64,000 bases of DNA from positions 3,782,001 to 3,846,000 of the forward strand of contig NZ_CP079107.1 of the NCBI RefSeq assembly GCF_019285735.1. Direction: 5' to 3'. Made by a program: the position numbers and the translations under genes. The stretch is from Paeniglutamicibacter sp. Y32M11. Lineage in GTDB: Bacteria > Actinomycetota > Actinomycetes > Actinomycetales > Micrococcaceae. Below, one piece after another: positions 46,993 to 60,773 of the stretch (the stretch's first letter is position 1; every line of letters begins with the position of its first letter). Below the pieces are notes generated by a model. The model saw nothing but the letters and a program-made list of their open reading frames with translations, was not told the origin of the DNA and did no database searches.

Positions 46993-47658
46993 ATGAGCCA
47001 ACGTGTCACCGCGCTTTCCATCATCGACGCGATCGTCCAGGATTTACGCCGACGCATCTACGAGGGTGACATCGCTCAGGGAACGGCGCTCACCGAAGCA
47101 GAGATCGCTGGCGCTTATGACGTTGCCCGCCCAACGGCCAAGGCCGCCATCGAACGCTTGGTTGCCGATGCGTTGCTCGAACGCGGTGCGCACAAAACGG
47201 CGCGCGTGAAGACACTGGGTGCCGATTCGGTCAGAGACATTTATTTGGCCCGGGCCTACCTCGAATCCGAAGTGGTGCGTCGGCTCGCCGCGACCGCGAC
47301 CGTCCCACCGGAAGCGGTGCGCGCAAACGCCGAAATTACCGCTCGGATATCGCAGCCGGCCACGACGATCATCGACCCCGACATGGATTTCCACACGGCT
47401 CTTGTTGACGCGATGGACAACATCCGGACCAGCACCATGTACCGCTCCCTGTTGGGAGAGGTCCGCCTCTGCATGACGCGGGTGCAGTCATTGGAGCTGC
47501 TGGATTCCGCAAAAATCGCCAGCGAACACGCCAGCATCTTGGAGCGAATCGCTTCCGGAGATGCAGAAGGCGCAGCCCTTGCCCTCGATGAGCACTTGGC
47601 GCAGGCCAGGGAACTGCTGGCGGCTGAAATTGAACAAGCCTCGGACCTCAATAGTTGA
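46993..47658 (+). CDS. GntR family regulator (FadR/LldR type, FCD domain)
   Basis: The 221-residue protein has a winged helix (residues about 10-75, LTEAEIAGAYDVARPTAKAAIERL) and an all-helical FCD ligand domain with the metal/ligand residues in DMDFHTALVDAMDN and the late His of ASEHASILERI. Such regulators respond to lactate or other hydroxy acids. It is divergent from the D-lactate-dehydrogenase-like gene, with a matching operator between. AGAGGA precedes the ATG. Confidence 0.9.
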   Translation: MSQRVTALSIIDAIVQDLRRRIYEGDIAQGTALTEAEIAGAYDVARPTAKAAIERLVADALLERGAHKTARVKTLGADSVRDIYLARAYLESEVVRRLAATATVPPEAVRANAEITARISQPATTIIDPDMDFHTALVDAMDNIRTSTMYRSLLGEVRLCMTRVQSLELLDSAKIASEHASILERIASGDAEGAALALDEHLAQARELLAAEIEQASDLNS

Positions 47659-48229
47659 GCCCCCGCCTGGGCCACACCGAGGTGTAGACCAAATAGATCC
47701 TTCCTTCGCTCGCAGATAAAGCTCCGGTCGAGTCGAGGCAGCGGAAGACCAAGGGAAACACCATCACCCTAGGATTGCTTCAGCGATCAGCACCGAATTT
47801 CGCTGCTCCAAAAAATCAAGAGCTCAACCAGATTTACCGTGGCCGAAAGAACCCAAACCTGCCCCACTGACCAATACCTTATGTTCGCTGTGCCTGAAAC
47901 CTGGCTTTAAGTAGGTGGTGACTGCGACAGCCCTGGGCAGTGAGGACGCCAAAATTTTGCCCGCCGCGGCCGAGGTAACTCTCGACCATCTGTGCCACAG
48001 GACGACGGGCACCTCAGGGCTTCACCCCGACAGTGACCAGTGCCGAAGGCAAACGACCCAATCCCGACCGCTAGCTTCCGGATATGGACAGCAGCTGCGC
48101 GCTTCCGCGGGTTACAGCACCCCTCGGAAATGGCCCACCCTTATGCGAACTTCTATCTCACTTGAACTAACGCGCCACGCCAAGACGTCTCTAGTCTTAT
48201 TCACTGCTAGTACGCGGCTGCACTTATCG
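47659..48229. other. Long stretch without a recognisable gene
   Basis: No frame here has a ribosome binding site with a protein-like translation I can name. A 62-codon minus-strand frame (47824-48012) contains a Trp/Ser-rich and basic stretch ending GAGLGSFGHGKSG and may be debris of a lost gene. The region precedes a preserved promoter that drives a dead LacI gene, so the whole 47.7-48.6 kb interval appears to be a deletion scar. Confidence 0.45.
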
Positions 48230-48265
48230 TTGCCTAACACCAACACGGGGTCTGTAATGGTGATC
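48230..48265 (+). promoter_or_regulatory. Promoter and operator of the lacI remnant, duplicate of the one at 51149
   Basis: TTGCCT (48230-48235) and TGTAAT (48253-48258) are 17 bases apart, followed by GGTGATCACAC. The arrangement and most bases match the promoter of the intact LacI gene at 51149-51187. Confidence 0.75.
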
Positions 48266-48314
48266 ACACACCCGGCATTTGGTGGTGAAACGAAGAGCGA
48301 CGGAGGGTACTACG

Positions 48315-48590
48315 ATGGCGTACGCCGCCAAGCCTTCGAGCAGGGAAATCTCCGGGGCACGAACGATCAGTTCACCCCCCACCTCCGATAGCGGACAGGT
48401 AGTCGTGAAAGAACTCCAGCATTCGTCCGACCATCCGCGGGCCATTGCCATCGGTTCCCACGAGTTGGGCATCGGCACCTTGAATAGCGCGCTGACCAAG
48501 GTACTTCACGACCCCGATTGAGTAGCCGTGCTCGGCAACGCCGCAGTCACTCCCCACTGACTCGACGCAACCACAACTACCTAACCCTTC
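48315..48590 (+). pseudogene. Truncated LacI family regulator
   Basis: GGAGGG lies 7 bases before ATG 48315. After about 14 residues the translation becomes the C-terminal part of a LacI core: ISSPPTSDSGQVV then HPRAIAIGSHELGIGTLNSAL, aligning with ISTRLNSDGGRVA and PPRAIVCGSDEIAIGVMEHAL of the intact regulator at 51235. The DNA-binding domain is missing. A stop at 48519 interrupts the fragment, but VAVLGN and a Thr-rich stretch matching the GLTTIVQP region continue to about 48590. It is a paralogue reduced by an internal deletion, with its promoter retained. Confidence 0.82.
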
Positions 48591-48680: not shown

Positions 48681-49571
48681 ATGCTCGGTTCCCCGCACAT
48701 TGACGTGCTGCTCGACATCAAGACCACCTTGGGCGAGGGCCCAGTCTGGGACGCGGAGTCCCAACGATTACATTGGATCGACAGTGCGGATGGCCGGATT
48801 TTCCGTTCTACCCACGACGGACGCGAACTGCGGGCGTGGGATATGCGAGAGCCCATCGGTTCGATGGCCGTTGGCAAAGATGGCGCCTCATTCCTCGCCG
48901 CGTTGAAAAGCGGCCTGCACCGCATTGATACCTCTAGTGGAGAGCGTGAACTGCTCATCGACCCGGAACCAGATTTGCCGAACAACCGCCTCAACGACGG
49001 AAAAGTGGACCGTCAAGGGCGATTCGTCTTCGGTTCGATGGACACGCTTGAGGAGCAGCCCAGTGGCAGCCTTTTCAGCTACTCCCCACAAGGCCAGCTC
49101 AGCATCCTCGATAAAGACATCGTGGTTTCCAACGGACCGTGTTTCAGTCCCGACGGAAAGACGCTATATTTCGCCGACACGTGGACAGGTGAAATCTGGG
49201 CTTACGACTACGAAACAGCCACCGGGAAAGCCAGCAATCGACGCACATTCGCAACTGTGGATACCAGCAGCGGAGGTGCAGCAGATGGGGCAACCGTCGA
49301 CGCCGAGGGATACCTCTGGCAGGCACTGGTCTATGGAGGCAAGATCATCCGCTATGCGCCCGACGGAACAGTTGACCGCGTCATCGAAACGCCCGTCCTC
49401 AAGGTGACAAGCCTTGCGTTTGGCGGACCAAAAATGGATACGCTCTACGCCACGTCCATGGCAAAGCCACCCCTTCCGCGTTTTCCCGAAGACGGCCAGC
49501 AACGCGGAGCACTCTTCGCCATCACAGGTCTTGGCGTTATCGGAATTCCCGAACCACGCTTCGGCGCCTAA
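48681..49571 (+). CDS. SMP-30/gluconolactonase family protein
   Basis: The 296-residue six-bladed propeller protein has GEGPVWD at residues about 18-24 (metal-binding Glu), NRLNDGKVDRQGRFVFG with the catalytic-site Asn/Asp, SNGPCFSPDGKTLYFADT and DGATVDAEGYLWQAL. Such proteins hydrolyse sugar-acid lactones using a divalent metal. I chose ATG 48681, with AAGGA 10 bases before it, over the upstream in-frame ATG at 48651. It heads a run of sugar-acid genes; a deoxyribonolactone or other aldonolactone is a fitting substrate by context. Confidence 0.88.
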   Translation: MLGSPHIDVLLDIKTTLGEGPVWDAESQRLHWIDSADGRIFRSTHDGRELRAWDMREPIGSMAVGKDGASFLAALKSGLHRIDTSSGERELLIDPEPDLPNNRLNDGKVDRQGRFVFGSMDTLEEQPSGSLFSYSPQGQLSILDKDIVVSNGPCFSPDGKTLYFADTWTGEIWAYDYETATGKASNRRTFATVDTSSGGAADGATVDAEGYLWQALVYGGKIIRYAPDGTVDRVIETPVLKVTSLAFGGPKMDTLYATSMAKPPLPRFPEDGQQRGALFAITGLGVIGIPEPRFGA

Positions 49572-49585
49572 GAAGAAAGCATCCC

Positions 49586-50917
49586 ATGTCCACCAAAAAA
49601 TCCTCACTCTCACTGAAATCCATCCACAAATACTCTTGGGTTTCACTGCTTGTCTGCTGGCTCATTTGGATTCTGAACGCCTATGATCGAGAAATCATCC
49701 TGCGTCTGGGCCCCACCATCTCAGAGACCTTCAACCTCTCCCCCGAAGCATGGGGCGCAATTGCATCGCTGATCATGTTGGTTCTGGCCGTGATGGCCAT
49801 ACCCGGTTCTGCCATGAGCGACAAGTACGGCGGCGGCTGGAAACGCGCCCGATTCCAGCTCCCGCTGGTTATCGGTTATACGGCGCTTTCCTTCCTCTCT
49901 GGCTTCAAATTCATCAGCCACAACATCGTTGCGTTTGTCGCGCTTCGCATTGGCGTCAATCTGGGCGCCGGCTGGGGCGAACCCGTCGGCGTCAGCAACA
50001 CCTCCGAGTGGTGGCCAAAGGAACGACGCGGCTTCGCACTCGGCGTCCACCACACCGGTTACCCCATCGGTTCACTACTCTCGGGTCTCATGGCCGCTGC
50101 GATCATTAGCCTCTTCGGTCCCGAAAATTGGTCCTACGCGTTCTTCTTTGCCTTGATCATCGCGGTGCCGCTGATGATCTTCTGGGGCAAGTACTCAACC
50201 CCGGACAAAATCGAGACGCTCTACGCTGACATCCGCGCGCAAGGCCTCAGCGCACCGGATGTCATCGACAACGAACTCCGTCCCAAGGGCCTGCTGAAGA
50301 AGACACTTCGGGAACGCAACATCACGCTCACAGCAGGAACAACCATGCTGACCCAAGTCGTCTACATGGGCATCAATGTCGTACTTCCTGCTTACCTGTT
50401 TAATGTCCTCGGCTTGTCTCTGGCAGCGTCGGCAGGGCTCAGCGTTGTCTTTGCCGTCACGGGCATCCTCGGTCAGATTATCTGGCCAACCCTCTCAGAC
50501 ATCATCGGACGAAAAATTACCATCATCATCTGTGGCGTTTGGATGACCATCTCTGTCGCAGCCTTCTACCTGGCGACAAGTTCCATGCTGGTGGTCATCA
50601 TCCAGTTGGCCTTTGGTCTGGTGGCAAACGCTGTCTGGCCCATCTACTACGCAGCAGCATCCGACGCTGCCCCCGAAGGCGCAACATCAACTGCAAATGG
50701 TGTGATCACCACCGCCATGTTTATCGGCGGTGGAATCGCGCCGGTGTTCATGGGGGCACTAATCAGCGCGGGTGGCGGCTGGGAGCAGCGCACCGGCTAC
50801 ATAATTTGCTTCTTGGCCATGGCAGCGTGTGCGCTATTGGGAGTTGTGTTGCAGCTCTTTGCCAAGCGCGATACAAACACTCCAATTAGCAAAACAGTTG
50901 CGGCCGCCGTCCACTAA
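49586..50917 (+). CDS. MFS transporter, sugar-acid/organic-acid type
   Basis: This 443-residue protein with 12 predicted helices has NAYDREIILRLGPTI in the first helix region, where related organic-acid transporters carry the YxDRxxI motif, and SDKYGGGWKRAR in the loop 2-3 position. It starts 14 bases after the lactonase stop, so the two are cotranscribed. Uptake of an aldonate or aldonolactone is likely. Confidence 0.88.
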   Translation: MSTKKSSLSLKSIHKYSWVSLLVCWLIWILNAYDREIILRLGPTISETFNLSPEAWGAIASLIMLVLAVMAIPGSAMSDKYGGGWKRARFQLPLVIGYTALSFLSGFKFISHNIVAFVALRIGVNLGAGWGEPVGVSNTSEWWPKERRGFALGVHHTGYPIGSLLSGLMAAAIISLFGPENWSYAFFFALIIAVPLMIFWGKYSTPDKIETLYADIRAQGLSAPDVIDNELRPKGLLKKTLRERNITLTAGTTMLTQVVYMGINVVLPAYLFNVLGLSLAASAGLSVVFAVTGILGQIIWPTLSDIIGRKITIIICGVWMTISVAAFYLATSSMLVVIIQLAFGLVANAVWPIYYAAASDAAPEGATSTANGVITTAMFIGGGIAPVFMGALISAGGGWEQRTGYIICFLAMAACALLGVVLQLFAKRDTNTPISKTVAAAVH

Positions 50918-50999
50918 GGTTCTCTGCCCCGCTGAATCGGGTGCCGAGCCGTCAGATCACGCGGTTTACCCGATGGGGCCGCCGCGAGGTGTTCGACCC

Positions 51000-51022
51000 C
51001 ATCGCCCTTCTGCAGGGCGATG
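51000..51022 (+). terminator. Candidate hairpin after the lactonase/MFS pair
   Basis: Perfect 8-base arms CATCGCCC and GGGCGATG enclose a 7-base loop. There is no T tract, so the terminator role is uncertain. The rest of 50918-51148 holds no gene I recognise. Confidence 0.4.
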
Positions 51023-51148
51023 GCTTGGACAGATTTCCACGCTGGCTTTGTGCCGTCTCCGCACTACAGGGAGGAACCCTGGCTCGTTATCCGCAGCCAT
51101 CGCTCTCCACCCTCATGCTTAACCAGCCATGAGTTCGATAGCTTAACG

Positions 51149-51187
51149 TTGCTTAACGACCCCGCATGGACTGTAATGGTGATCACA
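51149..51187 (+). promoter_or_regulatory. Promoter and operator of the lacI-MFS-SDR-BKACE-kinase operon
   Basis: TTGCTT (51149-51154) and TGTAAT (51172-51177) are 17 bases apart. GTGATCAC, a perfect 8-base palindrome, overlaps the downstream edge of the -10 element, and a GCTTAAC direct repeat (51141 and 51151) overlaps the -35. The same layout occurs at 48230. Confidence 0.75.
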
Positions 51188-51234
51188 CGCCAACGATCTG
51201 CCAGTCATGGACCAACAACGCGAAGGAGGCAAAG

Positions 51235-52290
51235 ATGCCGAGCACCCTGAACACCCCGACGGACCGACCCACCCGGGTTTCCGCCGCGGCGGTCGCGCGA
51301 GCATCGGGTGTCTCCGCCGCAACGGTCAGCTACATCATGAATGGTCGACCCGGGGCGTCCACCGAAACTCGTCGGCACGTCGTGAAGATTGCCAACGAGA
51401 TGGGTTTCCGTCCCTCGGGTAACTCCGCGGGACGCGACCCGCTGCTGACCCGCGTGGTGGGCCTCATCCTTCCGAACATCGTTAATCAGATGTACACCGG
51501 TTGGGCGCAACACATTATTAACGCAACTGCGGCGGAGGGCTTCGAAGTCTTTGTCGCAACAACCCAGGACGATCCGGAATCTCTAGCCCAGGTCGCCAGC
51601 ACTCTGGCGGCTCGCAATGTCGACGGCGTCATTATTGCCGCCGCGCTACGCGAAGATTCGCGGGCACTACGGACCCTGCGCCAAAAACGTATCCCGTATG
51701 TCTACCTTTCTAGGCGCTCGGACCACTTGCCCGGGGACTTCGTGGGAATCGATGACGATGCAGCGGCGGCCGAACTCATGGGCCACATCCTTGAGCACGG
51801 CTACCGGGAAATTGCGACGGTCATTGGGCCACGCTTCTCCACCGCTTCGATGGCACGCGAGCAGGCATTTGTCCGCACCGCAAGCGCCGCGGGTGTGGTG
51901 ATCACCGGGGAGCGGAAAATCAGCACCCGGCTGAACTCCGATGGCGGACGGGTGGCCGCGGAAAAACTCCTCGGTTCCGCCCATCCCCCGCGGGCCATCG
52001 TATGCGGATCCGATGAGATAGCCATCGGCGTCATGGAACACGCCCTGTCCCTAGGACTACGAATTCCCGAGGATGTGGCGGTCGTCGGCAGCGACGGTCT
52101 GCCGCGAAGCCGTTCATTGCTGATCGGTTTGACCACGATCGTCCAGCCGGTCAAGGAGATGGCCGAGCGCTCCTTCGAACTTCTTCTGGACCAAATTACC
52201 CATCCGCGAACTACCTACGCGCATTCGGTGTGTACGCATCGGATTCATATTGGACGGACCTGCGGGTGCGTTCCGGGCTCCGCCCACTAG
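51235..52290 (+). CDS. LacI family transcriptional regulator
   Basis: The 351-residue protein has a LacI helix-turn-helix (VSAAAVARASGVSAATVSYIMNG) and an effector core (VVGLILPNIVNQMYTGWA, VYLSRRSD, VVGSDGLPRSRSLLIGLTTI). GGAGG lies 6 bases before ATG 51235; the longer frame is not supported. It is the first gene of the operon carrying the SDR, BKACE and glycerate kinase and likely represses its own promoter. A truncated paralogue lies at 48315. Confidence 0.92.
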   Translation: MPSTLNTPTDRPTRVSAAAVARASGVSAATVSYIMNGRPGASTETRRHVVKIANEMGFRPSGNSAGRDPLLTRVVGLILPNIVNQMYTGWAQHIINATAAEGFEVFVATTQDDPESLAQVASTLAARNVDGVIIAAALREDSRALRTLRQKRIPYVYLSRRSDHLPGDFVGIDDDAAAAELMGHILEHGYREIATVIGPRFSTASMAREQAFVRTASAAGVVITGERKISTRLNSDGGRVAAEKLLGSAHPPRAIVCGSDEIAIGVMEHALSLGLRIPEDVAVVGSDGLPRSRSLLIGLTTIVQPVKEMAERSFELLLDQITHPRTTYAHSVCTHRIHIGRTCGCVPGSAH

Positions 52291-52366
52291 CCACCACCTC
52301 CATCATTTCAGCAGCCAGGGGCCGACGCGCCTTCCCGTTGCTACGCCCCCAAATAAAGGCAAAGAC

Positions 52367-53688
52367 ATGTCAGCCACTTCGCACCAAACGACGATGAGGT
52401 CACCCGAAGTCGTCAACAAGCTCATCTTCCGCCGCGTCATGCCGCTGCTAATTGCCGCATACGTCATGGCCTTCATCGATCGCACCAACATCGGCATGGC
52501 CAAAGACCGGATGGAGATCGATCTCGGAATCTCCGCCACCGCCTACGGAATTGGCGCCGGGCTGTTCTTCCTCACCTATGCCTTCTCCGAGATCCCCTCG
52601 AACCTGATCATGCACAAGGTCGGTGCCCGCTTCTGGATCATGAGGATCATGATCACCTGGGGCATCCTCTCCGCGTGCATGGCTCTGGTGCAGGGCGAAT
52701 GGTCCTTCTATATCTTGCGGATGTTGCTCGGCATCGCCGAGGCCGGGCTGTTCCCCGGAGTCATCTACTTCATCACCCAATGGTTTGTTGTTAAGCATCG
52801 GGCCAAGGCCAACGGCATGTTCCTGCTCGGAGTGTCCATCGCCAACATCGTCGGAGCTCCGCTCGGTGGCGTGCTGCTGACCCTCGACGGTCTCGGCGGC
52901 CTGCACGGCTGGCAGTGGATGTTCATCATCGAAGGCATCCCGCGTGCTTCCTGGCCTTCTTCATCTGGAAGTACCTGCCCAACAAGCCCACCGATTCCAC
53001 GTTCCTCACTAAAGCGGAGGCCGAAGATCTCGAGGCTCGCATCCTCGCCGAAGAAACGGCCGGGGCTAAAGCCTCGGGCAACTCGAAGTTGCGCCATGTA
53101 CTGAAGGACAAGCAGATCCTGCTGGTGGTGGCCATCTACTTCACCCACCAGATCGCGGTCTACGCGCTGAGCTTCTTCCTTCCCTCGATCATCGGCAGCT
53201 ATGGAACCCTGAACACCATCCAGATCGGTCTACTAACCTCCATCCCGTGGATCTTCTCTGCGGCAGGTGCCCTACTGCTGCCGCGCCTAGCCACCAACGC
53301 ATCGCGCTCGCGGCTGATCGCCACCTCGACGATGGTCGGCATCGTCGCCGGCTTCACGCTTGGCGCGGTTGGCGGTCCGCTGCTGGGCATGATCGGGTTC
53401 TGCTTGGCGGCCTTCAACTTCTTCGCCCTGCAGCCGATCCTCTTCACCTACCCGGCCACCCGACTCTCCGGTGCTGCGCTGGCCGGCGGTATCGCCTTCG
53501 TGAACACCGTTGGCCTCTTCGGAGGATTCCTCGGCCCGTACGTCATGGGCTTCATGGAGGAAACCACCGGCAGCAAGCTCTCGGGCCTCTGGTTCATCGT
53601 GGCGATGTGCGCCATCGGCGCAATGCTGACTCGAAAGCTTAAGCGCGGCACCGAGGACCCCTCCAAATCCTCCGTCGCCGCCCACTAA
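52367..53688 (+). pseudogene. ACS-family MFS transporter, frameshifted near residue 192
   Basis: ATG 52367 (AAAGG upstream) opens a typical anion:cation symporter with FIDRTNIGMAKDRM in helix 1, FSEIPSNLIMHKVGARFW and the central GWQWMFIIEGIP. At 52937-52944 the frame breaks: FLAFFIWKYLPNKPTDS and the six C-terminal helices continue in another frame to 53688. One base is missing in the CCC run at 52939-52941. Restored length is about 440 residues, normal for the family, which carries galactonate, tartrate and other sugar acids. It is the transporter of the SDR-BKACE-glycerate kinase operon. Confidence 0.87.
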
Positions 53689-53717
53689 ACCCGTCTACGA
53701 TCGGAAAGATTCTCACA

Positions 53718-54497
53718 ATGGGAACCCCAAAACTCGACTTTACCGACCACTCCGTTTTGGTCACCGCGGGAGCAGCCGGCATCGGCCTGGCTATCGCCAC
53801 TGCCTTCAAAGACCTTGGGGCCCGGGTTTTTGTTACCGACATCAACCCCGACGCCGTTGCTGCAGCTAGCGAAGCCGGTTTCACCGCGCTGGTGAATGAC
53901 GTATCGGATGAGGCTCAGGTCATCGAACTTGCCGCTGCCATTCGCAGCGAATTTGGATCGCTGGATGTCTTGGTCAACAACGCAGGCATCGCGGGTCCCA
54001 CCGGGCCCATCGACACCCTAGACGCCGCAGCCTGGCGCACCACCTTCGATGTGAATGTCCACGGTCAATTCCACTGCATCAAGCATCTGTTGCCGCTGCT
54101 GCGCGAGGCCAGTGACGCCTCGATCATCAATCTGTCCTCGGCCGCGGGTCGACTGGGCATGGCCGGCCGCAGCGCCTACTCGGCGTCCAAGTGGGCAGTG
54201 ATCGGACTGACCAAGACCCTGGCCATCGAGCTGGGTGACGAGCGCATCCGCGTTAATGCCATCTGCCCGGGTGCGGTAAATGGCCCCCGCATCGAGGCAG
54301 TTATTGAAGCCAAGGCCGCGATGCTCGGCCGCCCGCTGGCGGAGGTCTCGGATCTCTACCACCGGCAGTCGTCGCTGAATCGACTCGTCGAAGCCGGGGA
54401 CATTGCCGACATGGCCATCTTCCTGGCCAGCTCCATGGCACGCAGCATCAACGGTCAAGCAATGGCCGTCGACGGCAATACCGAAAAGCTCTACTAA
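53718..54497 (+). CDS. SDR family oxidoreductase, probable deoxyribonate 3-dehydrogenase
   Basis: The 259-residue protein has the NAD-binding GAAGIGLAIA, an Asp after beta-2 (VTDINPD) suggesting NAD preference, NNAG, catalytic Ser in INLSSAAGR and YSASKWAVIG. It lies between an ACS-type transporter and a BKACE gene. In the established deoxyribonate route an SDR oxidises C3 of 2-deoxy-D-ribonate to the 3-keto acid used by BKACE, and this gene fits that role by context. The general SDR call is firm; the specific substrate is inferred. Confidence 0.9.
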   Translation: MGTPKLDFTDHSVLVTAGAAGIGLAIATAFKDLGARVFVTDINPDAVAAASEAGFTALVNDVSDEAQVIELAAAIRSEFGSLDVLVNNAGIAGPTGPIDTLDAAAWRTTFDVNVHGQFHCIKHLLPLLREASDASIINLSSAAGRLGMAGRSAYSASKWAVIGLTKTLAIELGDERIRVNAICPGAVNGPRIEAVIEAKAAMLGRPLAEVSDLYHRQSSLNRLVEAGDIADMAIFLASSMARSINGQAMAVDGNTEKLY

Positions 54498-54513
54498 GGA
54501 ACCCGAGACCATC

Positions 54514-55446
54514 ATGGCAAATACACGCAAGGTCATCATCACCTCCGCCGTCACCGGCGCGATCCACACCCCCACCATGTCTCCGCATCTTCCGGTCACC
54601 GCCGACGAGATCGCCGAGGCAGCCATTGGCGCGGCCGAGGCCGGCGCCTCGATCGTGCACATGCACGCCCGGGATCCCAAGGACGGGCGCCCTTCTCAGG
54701 ACCCCGCCCACTTCGAACCCATTCTGCAAAAGCTCAAGGCCAACACCGACGCGATCATCAATATCACCACCGGCGGTTCACCGCACATGAGCGTGGAAGA
54801 ACGCATGCGTCCGGTAATCGAGTTCGCCCCCGAGCTCGCCTCATTGAACATGGGGTCGATGAACTTCGGCCTTTATCCCATGCTGGATCGCTTCAAGGAC
54901 TTCGAGCACGAATGGGAGCGCGAGGGACTGGAAAAATCCCGGGATTTGGTCTTCAAGAACACCTTCGCCGATATCCAGAAGATCTTGGAAATCGGTAACA
55001 AGAACGACACCCGCTTCGAATTCGAGTGCTACGACATCTCGCATTTAAACAACCTGGCGCATTTCCAGGCACGTGGGCTGGCCCGCGGCCCGCTCTTTGT
55101 CCAGTCCGTCTTCGGCCTACTCGGCGGAATCGGCGCTCATCCGGAGGATCTGATGCACATGCGTCGCACTGCTGACCGACTCTTCGGTGATAACTACGAA
55201 TGGTCGATCCTAGGTGCCGGTAAGAATCAGATGCCGCTGGCCACGATCGGTGCGGCCATGGGTTCGCACGTTCGGGTCGGCCTCGAAGACTCGTTGTGGA
55301 TCGGCCCCGGCCAGCTGGCGGTGTCCAACGCCGAGCAGGTCACCCGAGCTCGCACCATCCTCGAGGCCCTGAACTTCGAGGTCGCCACCCCCGATGAGGC
55401 CCGCGAAATGCTGGAGCTCAAGGGCCGCGAAAACGTTAATTTCTAG
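54514..55446 (+). CDS. Beta-keto acid cleavage enzyme (BKACE, DUF849 / 3-keto-5-aminohexanoate cleavage family)
   Basis: The 310-residue TIM-barrel protein has IITSAVTGAIHTP at the start, the zinc-binding HMHARDPKDGRPS (His-x-His), NITTGG, and a late GGIGAHPEDL. BKACE enzymes condense a beta-keto acid with acetyl-CoA to give acetoacetate and a new acyl-CoA. ATG 54514 is the natural start; the frame is open farther upstream inside the SDR gene. With the SDR before it and glycerate kinase after it, cleavage of 3-keto-2-deoxyribonate to glyceryl-CoA and acetoacetate is the best-fitting reaction. Confidence 0.92.
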   Translation: MANTRKVIITSAVTGAIHTPTMSPHLPVTADEIAEAAIGAAEAGASIVHMHARDPKDGRPSQDPAHFEPILQKLKANTDAIINITTGGSPHMSVEERMRPVIEFAPELASLNMGSMNFGLYPMLDRFKDFEHEWEREGLEKSRDLVFKNTFADIQKILEIGNKNDTRFEFECYDISHLNNLAHFQARGLARGPLFVQSVFGLLGGIGAHPEDLMHMRRTADRLFGDNYEWSILGAGKNQMPLATIGAAMGSHVRVGLEDSLWIGPGQLAVSNAEQVTRARTILEALNFEVATPDEAREMLELKGRENVNF

Positions 55447-55455
55447 AAAGGCACC

Positions 55456-56457
55456 ATGAAGATCCTGGTAGTCCCCGACAGCTTCAAGGGCACCTTCACC
55501 GCAGCCGAAGTTGCCGCCGCCATCGCCGGCGGCATCCGCTCCACCGGTGCGAGTGCCGAGGAAATGCCCGTGGCAGACGGAGGGGAAGGCACTGAGGAAA
55601 TTCTCGGTGCCGCGTTGGGGGCCCAGCGGATCTTTGTATCTACGGTTGGCCCATGGCGCGATCCGGTCTCCGCCTCCTATTCGCTGACAAGTGGTGGTAC
55701 CGCCTACATCAACCTTGCCGCAGCCAGCGGCATCACGCTGTCTGCTCCGGGTGGACGCAATCCCATCACCGCCGACACCTATGGCACCGGGCTGCTTATG
55801 GTGGACGCAATCTCCCGCGGCGCCAAGCAAGTGGTGGTTGCCGCGGGCGGATCGGCGACCACCGATGGAGGGGCAGGCGCCTGTGCGGCGATTGCCGATC
55901 ACGGCGGGCTGCGCGACGCACAGATAACCGTCCTCAGCGATGTCACCACGCCTTTCGAAGATGCAGCGGTCGTCTTCGGCCCACAAAAGGGTGCCACTCA
56001 ACACGAGATCACGCTACTGACCGAACGTCTGCATACGATCGCTGCGACCCTGCCGAAGGACCCTCGCGGCGTTCCCGCCACGGGTGCAGCCGGCGGTTTC
56101 AGCGGCGGACTCTGGGCGCAATACGATGCGCAGTTGCGCTCCGGCGCAGACTACGTCCTTGATACGATCGACTTCGAGGCTGCCATTTCGGATGCGGATG
56201 CGGTGGTCGTCGGCGAGGGTCGCCTGGATTCCCAAACTCTGCAGGGCAAGATCATCTCGGTGATCATGGCCCGCGGCGGATCCGTGCCTATTTATGCGGT
56301 GGTCGGATCGCTCACCGAGGATGCACCGCTAGATGCCTTCGCTCAGGTCCTTATCGCCACGGATGAGACTCGCATGCGAGCTGCCGGTGCGCAGATTGCC
56401 AGGGCGCATGCTCAGGCGACGGCACTTCCGAGCGACGCGAAAGCTTCAAACCGATAG
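55456..56457 (+). CDS. glxK: Glycerate kinase
   Basis: The 333-residue protein has the GlxK/GarK family blocks VVPDSFKGTFTAAEVAAAI, MPVADGGEGT, GGSATTDGGAGA and VVGEGRLDSQTLQGK. It phosphorylates D-glycerate, normally to 2-phosphoglycerate in this family, feeding glycolysis. It starts 9 bases after the BKACE stop with AAAGG before the ATG. In this operon it would consume glycerate arising from glyceryl-CoA. The length is slightly short of the usual 370-380 residues. Confidence 0.92.
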   Translation: MKILVVPDSFKGTFTAAEVAAAIAGGIRSTGASAEEMPVADGGEGTEEILGAALGAQRIFVSTVGPWRDPVSASYSLTSGGTAYINLAAASGITLSAPGGRNPITADTYGTGLLMVDAISRGAKQVVVAAGGSATTDGGAGACAAIADHGGLRDAQITVLSDVTTPFEDAAVVFGPQKGATQHEITLLTERLHTIAATLPKDPRGVPATGAAGGFSGGLWAQYDAQLRSGADYVLDTIDFEAAISDADAVVVGEGRLDSQTLQGKIISVIMARGGSVPIYAVVGSLTEDAPLDAFAQVLIATDETRMRAAGAQIARAHAQATALPSDAKASNR

Positions 56458-56468
56458 TGGGGGACGGC

Positions 56469-56711
56469 TCAGCTGCATGATTTCCGCTCGAAGCCACCTG
56501 CAAAAACAAGGTCTTCTTGATTGATTCCGGTGCCATCCGTGACCAGCAGTTCTTCTTCAGACGTGTTGTCACGACTTCCGGAGGTGGGCGTTTCATACTT
56601 TTCGCGTAGTTGAATAGCTCGTCCGAGCGCAAAGGCCACGATGGCGCCCAGAATCAGCCATCCTGCGATGACTATGGCAACGATTGCGACGACGTTCAAA
56701 GTGACACCCAC
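56469..56711 (-). CDS. Small single-pass membrane protein of unknown function
   Basis: The 80-residue product has one hydrophobic helix (residues about 5-29, VVAIVAIVIAGWLILGAIVA) followed by GRAIQLREK and a hydrophilic acidic tail. The helix-GRAI-LR pattern is frequent in short actinobacterial membrane proteins of unknown role. It starts with GTG and has no clear ribosome binding site, so the exact start is uncertain. It is convergent with glycerate kinase. Confidence 0.55.
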   Translation of the reverse strand: MGVTLNVVAIVAIVIAGWLILGAIVAFALGRAIQLREKYETPTSGSRDNTSEEELLVTDGTGINQEDLVFAGGFERKSCS

Positions 56712-57309
56712 GAGGTGATGCTCGATTGGGATAGCGTCAGGGTGTCACCTAGGAAAATTCCCTGTTCCATGGAATTCACGCTAGTCCTCTCGTCGTTGTT
56801 TGTTGTCGTCGATTGGCGTTTACCGCCACGTCGTACTGAGCAGTCTCCACGTGAAAACTGAGTGTTTCTTGAACAAAACCCTTGAATTTCCGCTTCCGCG
56901 GCACATGGAGAGACTCTCGAATTTATGGTTCATGACGCGGAAAACTGGGAAATTCCATTTTCGATATGAACAGCTATCCCGCAACGTCGAGAAGATCGTT
57001 CCAGAGAACAATGCTGAAACTGATGCAGTCCAAATATCCTCAGTGCCGCCGGAACGTACCTTATCGGATGGGATATTCGATCATCTTCACCAAAGTTCTC
57101 CAGCGCCCTGGACGTTTCGTTCACAGCCGTGGAGCCTCAAAGCCTCGAATGCGGCGGCCAGCGCCTATCGGGGGCTCAGCGCCCACCGAAGAATTTCCGT
57201 CGAGAGACTTTCATCCATCCATTTTTGAGGGCGTCAGTGATTCTTTTCATGGTGGCTGTGTCGGGTGGGATCGCCCACTTAATCTGCCGCAGATTATTTC
57301 ATCCCCGAA
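56712..57309. other. AT-richer stretch without a recognisable gene
   Basis: This interval is visibly richer in A and T than its neighbours. A 142-codon plus-strand frame (56800-57228) starts without a ribosome binding site and its translation resembles no family I know. It may be foreign or decayed DNA between the glycerate kinase operon and the iclR gene. Confidence 0.45.
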
Positions 57310-58104
57310 TTAGCGAAGCGGAAGTGCCGTCTCACCGCGCAATTTCTTGGACAGCTCATGGGCATGATGCAACAGTAATTCACCCATTTCCTTGCGCCGC
57401 TCGGGGGCGAATCTGGATTCAATTCCGGTCAGGCTCAAGGCCCAGGCTGGTTGCCCGGCCTTATCGAACACTGCCGAACCCATCCCCCAACTTCCTTGGA
57501 CGATCAGTCCCGGATTCACTGCCCAGCCACGTTCCCGAGTCTGGGTAATACGCTCGCGCAGGGCCGCTACGCTGTGTTCGATTCCGTGCCCAGGCACCAA
57601 ATCGTTCTGAGCCAAATATCGTTCCATCGCCGCCTCGGGAAGAAACGAAAGCATGACAAGGCCCGCCGAGGCGACCCCGAGCGGGAATCTTTTACCCTCG
57701 TAAAGCACAAAGGAACGGATGGGGAAGGCGCCGTCGGCTCGCAACAGACATACACTTTCGTCTCCTCGTCGTACCGAAAGGAAGGCGCTTTCGCCGGTGG
57801 CCTCGGCCAAAGCGGCCACGTGGTCGCGCGCAATCTCGGTGATGTCGTAGCGTTCGGCGGCTACGGTTCCCATCAGATACATTTCCGGCCCCAGGAGCCA
57901 CAGTCCCTCACGGTTGTCATGGTCGCAAAAGCCCTCCGCCGTGAGTGCCGCGAGCAGCCGGTGCACGGTGGGCCGGGCCAGCTGGGTGGTGCGGGCGACG
58001 TCGGCGGTCGAGGCGCCGCGGGGCATCGCGCTGCTCACCGCGCGCAACACGGCAGCCATTCGGCCCACGACCTGGGCTCCGGGAAACGAAGAAGTCATGA
58101 CCAC
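57310..58104 (-). CDS. IclR family transcriptional regulator
   Basis: The 264-residue regulator has the IclR winged helix (residues about 12-70, STADVARTTQLARPTVHRLLAAL) and the effector domain (FLSVRRGDESVCL, GVASAGLVMLSFLPEA, GWAVNPGLIVQGSWGMGSAVFD). It is divergent from scoA, scoB and the thiolase; regulators of this family control acetate, acetoacetate and beta-ketoadipate genes. A candidate operator lies at 58163-58183. Confidence 0.92.
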   Translation of the reverse strand: MVMTSSFPGAQVVGRMAAVLRAVSSAMPRGASTADVARTTQLARPTVHRLLAALTAEGFCDHDNREGLWLLGPEMYLMGTVAAERYDITEIARDHVAALAEATGESAFLSVRRGDESVCLLRADGAFPIRSFVLYEGKRFPLGVASAGLVMLSFLPEAAMERYLAQNDLVPGHGIEHSVAALRERITQTRERGWAVNPGLIVQGSWGMGSAVFDKAGQPAWALSLTGIESRFAPERRKEMGELLLHHAHELSKKLRGETALPLR

Positions 58105-58162
58105 ATTATGGACGATTGGCTGTCATTCGGTCACCTCTTGGCCATTATCCGGAATCTTTTCC

Positions 58163-58183
58163 GTATTCATTGACCGGGAATAC
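58163..58183. promoter_or_regulatory. Candidate IclR operator
   Basis: Six-base arms GTATTC (58163-58168) and GAATAC (58178-58183) are perfect inverted repeats with 9 bases between, in the 145-base divergent region between iclR and scoA. Confidence 0.5.
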
Positions 58184-58249
58184 GCCAACTAGCTACCGTC
58201 AAAGTAGAAGAAAGACGTTATCCACATCGTGGACGCACAAAGGAGCATC

Positions 58250-58954
58250 ATGGCAACGAAAGTTATAGCCGACGCCGCCGCGGCGTTGGCCGAAAGCGTG
58301 CGCGATGGCATGATCATCGCCGTGGGCGGCTTCGGCCTCAGTGGCATTCCCAATCGCCTGATCACGGCCCTGCGCGATTCCGGTGCGACCGGTTTAACCA
58401 TCGTTTCCAACAACATGGGCGTCGACGGCAAGGGGCTCGGAGTCCTGCTGGAAAACAAACAGGTAGCAAAGGTCTTGGCATCCTATGTGGGTGAGAACAA
58501 GCTCTTCGCCCAGCAGTTCCTCAACAAGGAGCTCGAAGTGGAGTTCGTCCCGCAGGGCACGTTGGCCGAACGGCTGCGAGCAGGAGGCGCGGGCATTCCC
58601 GCATTCTTCACCCCCACCGGTGTGGGAACTCCGGTGGCCGAGGGGAAAGAAGTCATGGAGTTCAACGGACGCCCCGCCATCTTAGAACGCGGCATCGTCG
58701 CCGACATTTCTCTGGTGCGGGCCTTTGAAGCCGACCCGGAGGGAAACTTGCGGTACCGGATGACAGCGCGGAACTTCAACCCGCTGGTCGCCACCGCGGG
58801 CCGCCTCACCTTCGCCGAGGCCGAGGTGATCCACGAGAATTACCTAGATCCCGCGCTTGTTGACACACCAGGCATCTTTGTACACCGGGTTGTAGCAACG
58901 GATGGCGTTAAAGACATCGAACAGCGGACCGTACGCGTCCGAGCGGAGGCATAA
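58250..58954 (+). CDS. scoA: 3-oxoacid CoA-transferase subunit A
   Basis: The 234-residue alpha subunit has GMIIAVGGFGLSGIPNRLI, the CoA-transferase family I glycine-rich block, and GVGTPVAEGKEVMEFNGRPAILE. I chose ATG 58250, with AAAGGAG 5 bases before it, over GTG 58229. With subunit B it moves CoA from succinyl-CoA to acetoacetate or, in the catechol branch, 3-oxoadipate. The adjacent thiolase and the acetoacetate-producing pathway upstream favour acetoacetate. Confidence 0.92.
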   Translation: MATKVIADAAAALAESVRDGMIIAVGGFGLSGIPNRLITALRDSGATGLTIVSNNMGVDGKGLGVLLENKQVAKVLASYVGENKLFAQQFLNKELEVEFVPQGTLAERLRAGGAGIPAFFTPTGVGTPVAEGKEVMEFNGRPAILERGIVADISLVRAFEADPEGNLRYRMTARNFNPLVATAGRLTFAEAEVIHENYLDPALVDTPGIFVHRVVATDGVKDIEQRTVRVRAEA

Positions 58955-58957
58955 ATC

Positions 58958-59607
58958 ATGTGGACACGCGATGAAATGGCAGCCATTGCCGCTTCCGAAC
59001 TCACCGACGGCCAATACGTGAACCTCGGCATTGGCATCCCCACTCTCGTGGCGAACAATTTGCCGCAGGGTGTGAACGTCACCCTGCAGAGCGAAAACGG
59101 CTTGCTGGGCATGGGGCCCTTCCCCTTCGAGGGGAAGAAGACGCCGATTTGATTAACGCCGGCAAACAAACGGTGACGTTGTTGCCCGGTGGCAGCTACT
59201 TCGATTCCGCCACCTCCTTCGGGATGATCCGCGGTGGACACGTGGCCACCGCGATTCTCGGCGCCTTGCAGGTGGCGGCCAATGGCGACCTTGCCAACTG
59301 GACCATCCCCGGCAAGTTGGTTAAGGGCATGGGCGGGGCCATGGACCTGGTGGCCGGAACGCCGCGCGTCATTGTCATCACCGACCACGTGGCCAAGGAC
59401 GGCACGCCCAAGATCGTAGAAACTTGCGACCTGCCGCTGACCGGAGTCGGCGTGGTGGATAGGATCATCACCGACCGCGCGGTCTTTGACGTCATCAACA
59501 AGGCCTTGGTGCTGCGCTCCGTGGCACCGGGTGTCACCATGGAAGACCTGCGCGAGGCCACTGGCGCGCCATTCACGATTGAGATTGAGGAAGTAAACGC
59601 AGCATGA
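58958..59607 (+). pseudogene. scoB: 3-oxoacid CoA-transferase subunit B, frameshifted near residue 59
   Basis: The first frame (58958-59152) carries [12 protein letters not shown] and the catalytic glutamate Glu46 in [12 protein letters not shown], then loses frame after FEG. The rest ([36 protein letters not shown]) continues in another frame to 59607. One G is missing from the run 59131-59134, since GAG GGG GAA GAA GAC would restore E-G-E-E-D. The corrected protein has about 216 residues, normal for ScoB. The stop overlaps the thiolase start by 4 bases. As read, no functional transferase would form. Confidence 0.9.
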
Positions 59608-60773
59608 GCGCACTAATCGTCGGGTACGCCCGCACCCCCTTCGCCCGCTTCAACGGCGCCTTCGCCACGGTTCCGGGTACTGCCCTTGGTGCTCACGCGG
59701 CAGCGGCAGCCATGGAACGCGCCGGCCTTGACGCCTCCGAGGTTCAGCGGGTCTTCGCTGGTCAGGTTCTCCAAGGCGGAGCCGGCCAGAACCCCGCACG
59801 CCAGTCGGCGATCGGCGCCGGAATCGGCTATGACGTCCCGGCCATGACGCTGAATGCCGTCTGCCTCTCGGGCACCGAGGCTGTGGTTGCCGGAGAACGC
59901 ATGATTTCCGCCGGTGAGGTGGACGTGGTGGTGGCCATCGGGCAGGAATCCATGTCGCTGGCACCGCACGTGCAGCGCGCCCGGGCTGGGACCAAGTACG
60001 GTGCCATTGAGTTGATTGACACCCTGGAATACGACGGATTGACCGACGCCTTTGAAAAGCGCTCGATGGGTTCTTCTACCGAGGATGGCAATGCCACCCA
60101 CGGCATCACCCGTGCGGCACAGGATGAATTCTCTGCCCGTTCGCACCGTTTGGCTGCCGCCGCGGCAGACTTCCACGCCGCGGAAATCGCACCCTTCACC
60201 ATTTCTTCGCGTCGCGGCGATGTTGTTGTCTCCGCCGATGACGGCATCCGGGCCGACACCACGGCCGAGTCGCTGTCCAAGCTCCGTCCTTCCTTCAGTA
60301 AGGACGGCACCATCACCGCGGGCAACGCCTCACAGATCACCGACGGCGCCGCGGCGATTGTCTTGGTCAGTAAGGCTGCCGCCGAGCGTCTGGGCTTGAC
60401 CCCGATCGCCGAAATTGTCTCCCACGCGCTGGTTGCCGGCCCGGATGTCTCGCTGCACGAGCAACCCGCCAATGCCATCCTTGCCGCCTTGGAGGGCACC
60501 GGGGTTTCCGCTGCTGACCTGAAGGCCGTGGAAATCAACGAGGCATTCGCCGCCGTTGGTGTTCAGTCGGTGGCCAAGCTGGGCATCGATCCGGAGATCG
60601 TCAATCCCAAGGGCGGCGCCATTGCGCTGGGGCACCCGATCGGCGCCTCGGGTGCCCGCATCATTGGTACTCTCGCTCGCCAGTTGGCCGAGCTGGGTTC
60701 CGGCTCCGTTGGTGCCACGGGCATCTGCGGCGGCGGCGGCCAGGGTAGCGCCGTGGTGCTGCGTGCCATCTAG
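59604..60773 (+). CDS. Acetyl-CoA C-acyltransferase (thiolase)
   Basis: The 389-residue thiolase has the acylation-site Cys87 in NAVCLSG, the EINEAFA block, GHPIGASGARI with the catalytic His, and CGGGGQGSA with the second Cys. It is the size of biosynthetic/degradative acetyl-CoA acetyltransferases. It overlaps scoB and would split acetoacetyl-CoA into two acetyl-CoA; a beta-ketoadipyl-CoA thiolase role (pcaF) cannot be excluded. Confidence 0.93.
   Translation: MSALIVGYARTPFARFNGAFATVPGTALGAHAAAAAMERAGLDASEVQRVFAGQVLQGGAGQNPARQSAIGAGIGYDVPAMTLNAVCLSGTEAVVAGERMISAGEVDVVVAIGQESMSLAPHVQRARAGTKYGAIELIDTLEYDGLTDAFEKRSMGSSTEDGNATHGITRAAQDEFSARSHRLAAAAADFHAAEIAPFTISSRRGDVVVSADDGIRADTTAESLSKLRPSFSKDGTITAGNASQITDGAAAIVLVSKAAAERLGLTPIAEIVSHALVAGPDVSLHEQPANAILAALEGTGVSAADLKAVEINEAFAAVGVQSVAKLGIDPEIVNPKGGAIALGHPIGASGARIIGTLARQLAELGSGSVGATGICGGGGQGSAVVLRAI

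Follow-up and report, generated by a model that had tools for sequence, protein, structure and literature searches.

An oxidative pathway for 2-deoxy-D-ribonate has been shown in four proteobacteria, three of which use a route through a beta-keto acid cleavage enzyme (BKACE) (Price et al. 2019, PMC6365646). In Pseudomonas simiae, growth on deoxyribonate needs, by mutant fitness, a dehydrogenase of the SDR family, a BKACE, two MFS transporters, a glycerate kinase, and a thiolase, and a lactonase has a mild effect on deoxyribonate, its main importance being with deoxyribose. Purified SDR turned deoxyribonate into a ketodeoxyribonate; direct proof in that study did not extend to the BKACE step. 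Here, we describe positions 48681-60773 of a 64,000-nucleotide stretch (the window) of contig NZ_CP079107.1 from Paeniglutamicibacter sp. Y32M11, which, judged by homology and gene order, very probably form a deoxyribonate/deoxyribonolactone catabolic locus.

The P. simiae WCS417 cluster (PS417_07240-07265, PMC6365646) resembles the window in its SDR, BKACE, lactonase, and two MFS transporters, with glycerate kinase and thiolase as further pathway members. Unlike that cluster, the window has LacI instead of GntR as regulator, the glycerate kinase within the operon, the lactonase and first MFS transporter as a separate promoter-matched unit, and CoA-transferase and thiolase genes next door (in-operon in relatives), and it comes from another phylum. 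The Klebsiella michiganensis M5al cluster (PMC6365646) also shares the lactonase, two MFS transporters, CoA-transferase, thiolase, and glycerate kinase, but it lacks a BKACE and an SDR, and a CoA ester of deoxyribonate is proposed to be formed first. A third likeness is the CORE cycle (PMC11961710), in which a BKACE is combined with a CoA-transferase that activates acetoacetate from the new acyl-CoA (formyl-CoA) and with a thiolase yielding two acetyl-CoA. In contrast to the relay proposed below, this cycle is man-made, with malonate semialdehyde as substrate and formate as product.

Results

To compare the window with the P. simiae type, we used three Pseudomonas loci (L101, L105, and L118; L and G numbers denote loci and genomes of our comparison) with the order GntR-SDR-BKACE-lactonase-MFS-MFS published for the P. 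simiae cluster, the P. simiae WCS417 sequence itself lying outside the comparison. In L101 and L105, GTGATCAC begins 47 bases ahead of the GntR start, matching what PMC6365646 gives for P. simiae. Relative to these loci, the window lactonase is 69-70% identical, MFS transporter A 65-67% (to the first MFS), the BKACE 70%, MFS transporter B 56-67% over the N-terminal part (to the second MFS), and the SDR 46-48%. Between P. simiae and K. michiganensis, a pair tested by experiment, the lactonases are 70% identical and the transporters more than 50% (PMC6365646), so that the window genes show about the same degree of relatedness. When SDRs from BKACE neighborhoods were placed in a tree by a quick method, 81 of 108 formed one clade (SH-aLRT 100) containing those of the window and of the Pseudomonas clusters, with the other 27 outside; this clade also includes SDRs away from BKACE (e.g. 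L089 and L091), a few of them 7-8 kb off and on the other strand. The window thus holds the set expected of a P. simiae-type pathway, i.e., a related SDR with a BKACE beside it, a lactonase, two MFS transporters, a glycerate kinase, and an acetoacetate outlet. Counterparts of the lactonase, both transporters, SDR, and BKACE occur in Pseudomonas clusters whose type fails on deoxyribonate when mutated (PMC6365646), which supports the substrate proposed in the first-pass annotation of the window.

All the genes named in that annotation were found where it had placed them and were confirmed by profiles (Table 1). The genome is a single 4.17 Mb contig in which the BKACE is the sole copy, next to four glycerate kinase genes (two of these matched as two pieces) and one DeoC-family match. 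The grouping is more than chance, since the order LacI-MFS-SDR-BKACE-glycerate kinase is kept in 5/5 genus genomes (its own included) with a BKACE at least 95% identical.

Table 1. Features of the locus, in positions of the window
Feature	Position	Strand	Basis
Promoter/operator copy 1 (predicted), ahead of lactonase unit	48223-48267	+	CTTATCGTTGCCTAAC, TTGCCT-17-TGTAAT, GTGATCAC
Remnant of second lacI	48348-48539	+	Match to window LacI, internal stop
SGL/SMP-30 family lactonase, probable deoxyribonolactonase	48681-49571	+	PF08450, 266 bits
MFS transporter A	49586-50917	+	PF07690
Promoter/operator copy 2 (predicted), ahead of lacI	51142-51186	+	Kept in 4/4 genus relatives
LacI-family regulator	51235-52290	+	PF00356/PF13377
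MFS transporter B, frameshifted near 52941 as assembled	52370-53688	+	Profile and relatives
SDR, probable deoxyribonate 3-dehydrogenase	53718-54497	+	Clade shared with Pseudomonas-cluster SDRs
BKACE, probable 3-keto-deoxyribonate cleavage enzyme	54517-55446	+	PF05853, 365 bits
Glycerate kinase, short form of PF02595	55456-56457	+	Profile match
IclR-family regulator of neighboring block	57310-58104	-	Profile; within uninterrupted G407/G408 block
3-Oxoacid CoA-transferase subunit A	58229-58954	+	TIGR02429, 224 bits (cut-off 128.5)
3-Oxoacid CoA-transferase subunit B, frameshifted near 59129 as assembled	about 58955-59607	+	TIGR02428, in-frame part 219 bits
Acetyl-CoA C-acetyltransferase (thiolase)	59604-60773	+	TIGR01930, 369 bits

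We then considered how widespread and how variable this operon is. In 395 same-family genomes, a BKACE at the threshold of E 1e-130 or better is found in 36 genomes from 9 of 32 genera, and in a phylum-wide draw a BKACE at E 1e-60 is present in 16 of 396 genomes. Among the 30 family loci outside the genus that we examined (in L193, L205, and L207 the contig ends less than 3 kb from BKACE), the BKACE is accompanied by an SDR in 28, LacI in 27, and MFS B in 23, and a glycerate kinase stands behind BKACE or thiolase in 15. Lactonase and MFS A are found together in four, between LacI and MFS B in three and behind BKACE in one. The first-pass annotation had taken the upstream lactonase and transporter as suited to deoxyribonolactone, and their part in the pathway gained support from G425, G547, and G705 (two other genera), where both genes are inside the operon and about 82-85% identical to those of the window. 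Four named Arthrobacter loci also carry the operon or parts of it, with a BKACE identity of 86-88%.

In five of the 30 family loci (G547, G729, G615, G705, and G476), BKACE is followed immediately by CoA-transferase A and B, and in four of these an SDR precedes it; a window-like thiolase follows the pair in G547 and G729, and the G476 contig ends there. The most complete arrangement is that of G547, with 10 genes on one strand: LacI, lactonase, MFS A, MFS B, SDR, BKACE, CoA-transferase A, CoA-transferase B, thiolase, and glycerate kinase. The order in Arthrobacter pascens DSM 20545 (L048, not among the 30) is identical except that lactonase and MFS A are missing. In both, the stretch from BKACE to glycerate kinase holds only the CoA-transferase pair and thiolase. 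The self-contained actinobacterial version that the first-pass annotation had suggested for the window therefore exists in G547, and nearly so in A. pascens, while the outlet of the window is a separate core locus. In the window, the CoA-transferase pair and thiolase are indeed present downstream, but outside the operon and with the opposite-strand IclR gene intervening.

The window CoA-transferase pair fits, by profile, a family-I 3-oxoacid CoA-transferase of the acetoacetate type. Subunit B scores below the TIGR02428 cut-off of 243.55 because its in-frame part is short; the subunit is intact in relatives, and it has the SENG motif, which presumably holds the catalytic Glu. For the thiolase, the best equivalog is acetyl-CoA C-acetyltransferase with 368 bits (below its cut-off of 526), compared with 249 for pcaF. 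A second CoA-transferase pair, about 17 kb from the first (contig 3856567-3859195, L162), is distinct and of the 3-oxoadipate type, and its thiolase has 3-oxoadipyl-CoA thiolases as best models (under cut-offs). We rejected the idea that the window CoA-transferase block represents pca genes, since the genome has this separate pair with a 3-oxoadipyl-CoA-thiolase-like gene.

The first-pass annotation had remarked that no separate glyceryl-CoA hydrolase is visible, and the published pathway has the same gap, being listed with an unknown hydrolase in PMC9007349. No thioesterase was seen in the Micrococcaceae-type operons, of whose unlabeled members 10 of 28 were profile-scanned and the rest only inspected; operon calls were heuristic and too short in several loci. 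For proteobacterial operons, none appeared among the 25 Pfam families listed out of 64, with 36 representatives of 159 clusters scanned. The literature searched yielded no carnitine thioesterase precedent, and we found no proposal of a glyceryl-CoA CoA-transferase for the BKACE route in the excerpts of PMC6365646, PMC9007349, and PMC11961710 (open-licence PMC). A CoA-transferase has been suggested for the K. michiganensis variant, and acetoacetate activation genes are important in P. bryophila (PMC6365646). A butyryl-CoA:acetoacetate CoA-transferase is known from lysine fermenters (cited in PMC4697335). In addition, the core-type CoA-transferase of the genus was not found in four of the five genomes with an in-operon pair but was found in 23/23 others with a visible downstream region (Fisher 0.00024, ignoring kinship; G425 and G453, whose contigs end at BKACE, were set aside).

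Because only the CoA-transferase pair and thiolase separate BKACE from glycerate kinase in G547 and A. pascens, closure of the gap by the CoA-transferase is attractive. On the strength of this operon position, we tentatively propose that the enzyme may move CoA from glyceryl-CoA to acetoacetate (glyceryl-CoA + acetoacetate -> glycerate + acetoacetyl-CoA). The CoA-transferase-based step raised in the first-pass annotation has thus gained support from operon structure in relatives, with the specificity of the enzyme still inferential. It is nearly as likely as not that these operons have no glyceryl-CoA hydrolase and that BKACE, CoA-transferase, and thiolase act as an ATP-free relay splitting the free 3-keto acid with catalytic acetyl-CoA.

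In the window strain, where we infer every step from homology and gene order, the pathway would run as follows. The MFS proteins would import deoxyribonate or its lactone, the lactonase would open the lactone, and the SDR would oxidize C3 of deoxyribonate. The BKACE would then cleave 3-keto-2-deoxyribonate with acetyl-CoA into acetoacetate and glyceryl-CoA, from which the family-I CoA-transferase (next door here, in-operon in relatives) could pass CoA on to acetoacetate. The thiolase would complete the acetoacetate half by giving two acetyl-CoA, one of them re-priming BKACE, and the glycerate kinase would complete the glycerate half.

The two transcription units are preceded by predicted promoters, copies 1 and 2, that agree at 36/47 bases (next best in the window, 26/47), and GTAATGGTGATCACAC has exactly two occurrences in the genome, both at these promoters. 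The sequence of copy 2 and its distance to lacI are kept in 4/4 genus relatives, one of which has changes in the palindrome. A survey of the element covered 41 loci, 22 of which allowed lacI to be located. Among the 18 such loci outside the genus, 13 (two pairs being from the same genomes) match the element at 12/17 positions or more, 94-107 bases before the same lacI motif, and five do not; in a shuffled control, 16 of 1100 sequences reach at least 12/17. LacI is the likely shared repressor because it stays with the operon (27/30 family loci), and it probably represses both units via the matching predicted promoter/operator sites. A promoter scan of the window lists neither predicted promoter, and the -35 fits the consensus at three of six positions.

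Two other regulatory readings were rejected. GTGATCAC, which both promoters contain, is identical to the palindrome given in PMC6365646, with six occurrences in the window versus 1.45 expected. An operator shared with P. simiae was not retained; the identity is probably coincidental, most loci outside the genus reading like TGTAACTGAGGTCACAG at the same distance. As for the FCD-GntR gene at 46993, considered as main regulator, it is present in 11/15 genus genomes, also without the operon. It lies apart from the operon in G402 and G400 and was not found in G396, whereas LacI keeps its place with the operon.

Comparison within the genus offers a glimpse of how the locus was assembled. Core-type CoA-transferase A (at least 84% identity) is present in 13/15 genus genomes. 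In G407 and G408, FAD oxidase, GntR, IclR, CoA-transferase, and thiolase genes form an uninterrupted block, whereas GntR and IclR are separated by the LacI-to-glycerate-kinase operon in the window and in G409; in G396 and G402 the operon also adjoins IclR, and in G400 about 15 kb lie between the two. Read this way, the CoA-transferase/thiolase block is core genome, with the catabolic operon inserted beside it. The lactonase is found in only 1/15 genus genomes, and G409 has about 150 bases in place of the 3.3 kb of the lactonase unit. The lacI remnant in this unit comprises 64 residues with 44% identity to window LacI (E 2e-13) and a stop inside, and its DNA match reaches 47.3 bits versus at most 26.5 in 200 shuffles. 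Since promoter copy, lacI remnant, and lactonase stand in G547-type order, the unit resembles the front part of another G547-type operon that retained promoter, lactonase, and transporter but whose lacI has decayed.

The FAD oxidase of the core block is a 960-residue GlcD-like FAD-linked protein (44011-46893, - strand), divergent from FCD-GntR (46993-47658, + strand). G615 (L211) encodes a 69% relative of it 5.6 kb downstream of its BKACE and CoA-transferase pair. In G407, the operon is not at the core block, and a more distant MFS-SDR-BKACE set, apparently of other origin, is found elsewhere (L036; BKACE 71%, SDR 47%).

Finally, we examined what the BKACE sequence says about its substrate. 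The counterparts of E171 and R254 of BKACE15 (PMC11961710) are kept in the window BKACE as E170 and R253 (numbered without Met), at positions invariant across 23 aligned BKACE proteins. In a 96-row tree, the window BKACE does not group with the Pseudomonas-cluster BKACEs, the two lying in different supported clades. BKACE sequence alone thus does not fix the substrate: the residue and subgroup comparison suggested in the first-pass annotation cannot settle it, and a deoxyribonate-specific subgroup may not exist as a single clade. The window BKACE scores 544 bits (cut-off 430) with NCBIfam NF053538, named for 3,5-dioxohexanoate. We discounted this label as not discriminating, since the Pseudomonas-cluster BKACEs pass equally (534-540 bits for four Pseudomonas BKACEs), and automatic annotation as 3,5-dioxohexanoate:acetyl-CoA acetone transferase probably misnames the cluster enzymes.

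Two further observations concern BKACE loci elsewhere. In a scan of named genomes for BKACE relatives, limited to the best 80 of at least 595, a 3-hydroxyacyl-CoA-dehydrogenase-type enzyme is near BKACE in 20/80 loci (L091, L104, L108, L113, and others), mostly directly ahead and with or without an SDR, which suggests that further beta-hydroxy acids are used or that oxidation can take a second route. In L096 (Paraburkholderia xenovorans LB400 chromosome 2), there is a stop codon inside the BKACE match, and two overlapping frames match BKACE.

Discussion

Several of our findings weigh against the proposed function, and they bear on different parts of it. As regards the substrate, the SDR is less than 50% identical to the Pseudomonas-cluster SDRs, the window BKACE falls outside their BKACE clade, the name of NF053538 points to another compound, and a glycerate kinase beside BKACE was not seen in 15/30 family loci (three cut by contig ends). 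The SDR and BKACE divergence, together with the promiscuity of BKACEs (PMC4922564), would fit another 3-hydroxy acid yielding glyceryl-CoA or a similar acyl-CoA through the same machinery, such as 2-deoxy-threo-pentonate or another 2-deoxyaldonate. We consider this improbable, because the lactonase and both transporters, common to the P. simiae and K. michiganensis clusters (PMC6365646), have close kin here and a glycerate kinase comes after BKACE. Far less probable still is a BKACE locus of the dehydrocarnitine or aromatic type to which the neighboring kinase is unrelated. Although BKACE15 (8RIO), the second-best solved relative, has been put in aromatic degradation by context (PMC11961710), such a locus fits poorly with the deoxyribonate-type lactonase and MFS transporters in and beside the operon and with the separate CoA-transferase pair and 3-oxoadipyl-CoA-thiolase-like gene 17 kb off. 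Decay of the deoxyribonate locus, with transporter B and CoA-transferase B as pseudogenes and the pathway off in this strain, would explain why transporter B is broken as assembled, and the decayed lacI copy points the same way as the two frameshifts. Relative to the nearest relative G409, each gene has lost 1 nt, near 52941 and near 59129, and transporter B is one open frame in 4/4 close relatives. However, the alignment of about 49 kb (with some stretches counted twice) shows five frame-changing 1-nt losses in the window and four in G409, and all five window losses fall in or next to short homopolymers and resemble assembly errors. Assembly error is therefore at least as likely as decay as the cause of both breaks and, as the remaining genes of the locus are open, we regard a pathway that is off as unlikely.

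The glyceryl-CoA step is the least secure part of the deoxyribonate pathway proposed here. With the same locus and substrate, a general thioesterase encoded elsewhere may quite plausibly hydrolyze glyceryl-CoA, the CoA-transferase merely activating acetoacetate with succinyl-CoA or acetyl-CoA. No gene for this step was found for P. simiae, where redundancy is suspected and CoA-transferases are without phenotype (PMC6365646), and the unknown hydrolase listed in PMC9007349 fits the same idea. The core CoA-transferase also occurs in genus genomes that have no BKACE and must therefore normally serve another purpose. The link between in-operon pairs and missing core copies is uncorrected for kinship, and similar partial CoA-transferase matches are present elsewhere in G547, G705, G729, and G476 (none in G453). 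G615 has BKACE and the CoA-transferase pair with another thiolase but neither SDR nor LacI, so the two can pair without a link to deoxyribonate, and in G705 the pair stands behind BKACE without an adjoining thiolase or glycerate kinase. What speaks for transfer rather than hydrolysis is that no hydrolase gene was seen in the Micrococcaceae-type operons, within the scan described above, and that the CoA-transferase pair is directly behind BKACE in 5/30 loci and A. pascens.

Taken together, these findings describe a known pathway in a new actinobacterial variant, with another regulator and another layout. The build-up of the locus is visible in the genome, from a core acetoacetate outlet, through an inserted catabolic operon, to a second operon head with a matching promoter. 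Since two sister operons put a CoA-transferase between the BKACE that would make glyceryl-CoA and the glycerate kinase, the pathway gap from glyceryl-CoA to glycerate is reduced to one enzyme assay. If the transfer step is true, the relay drawn by engineers for the CORE cycle would exist as a natural operon in G547 and A. pascens.

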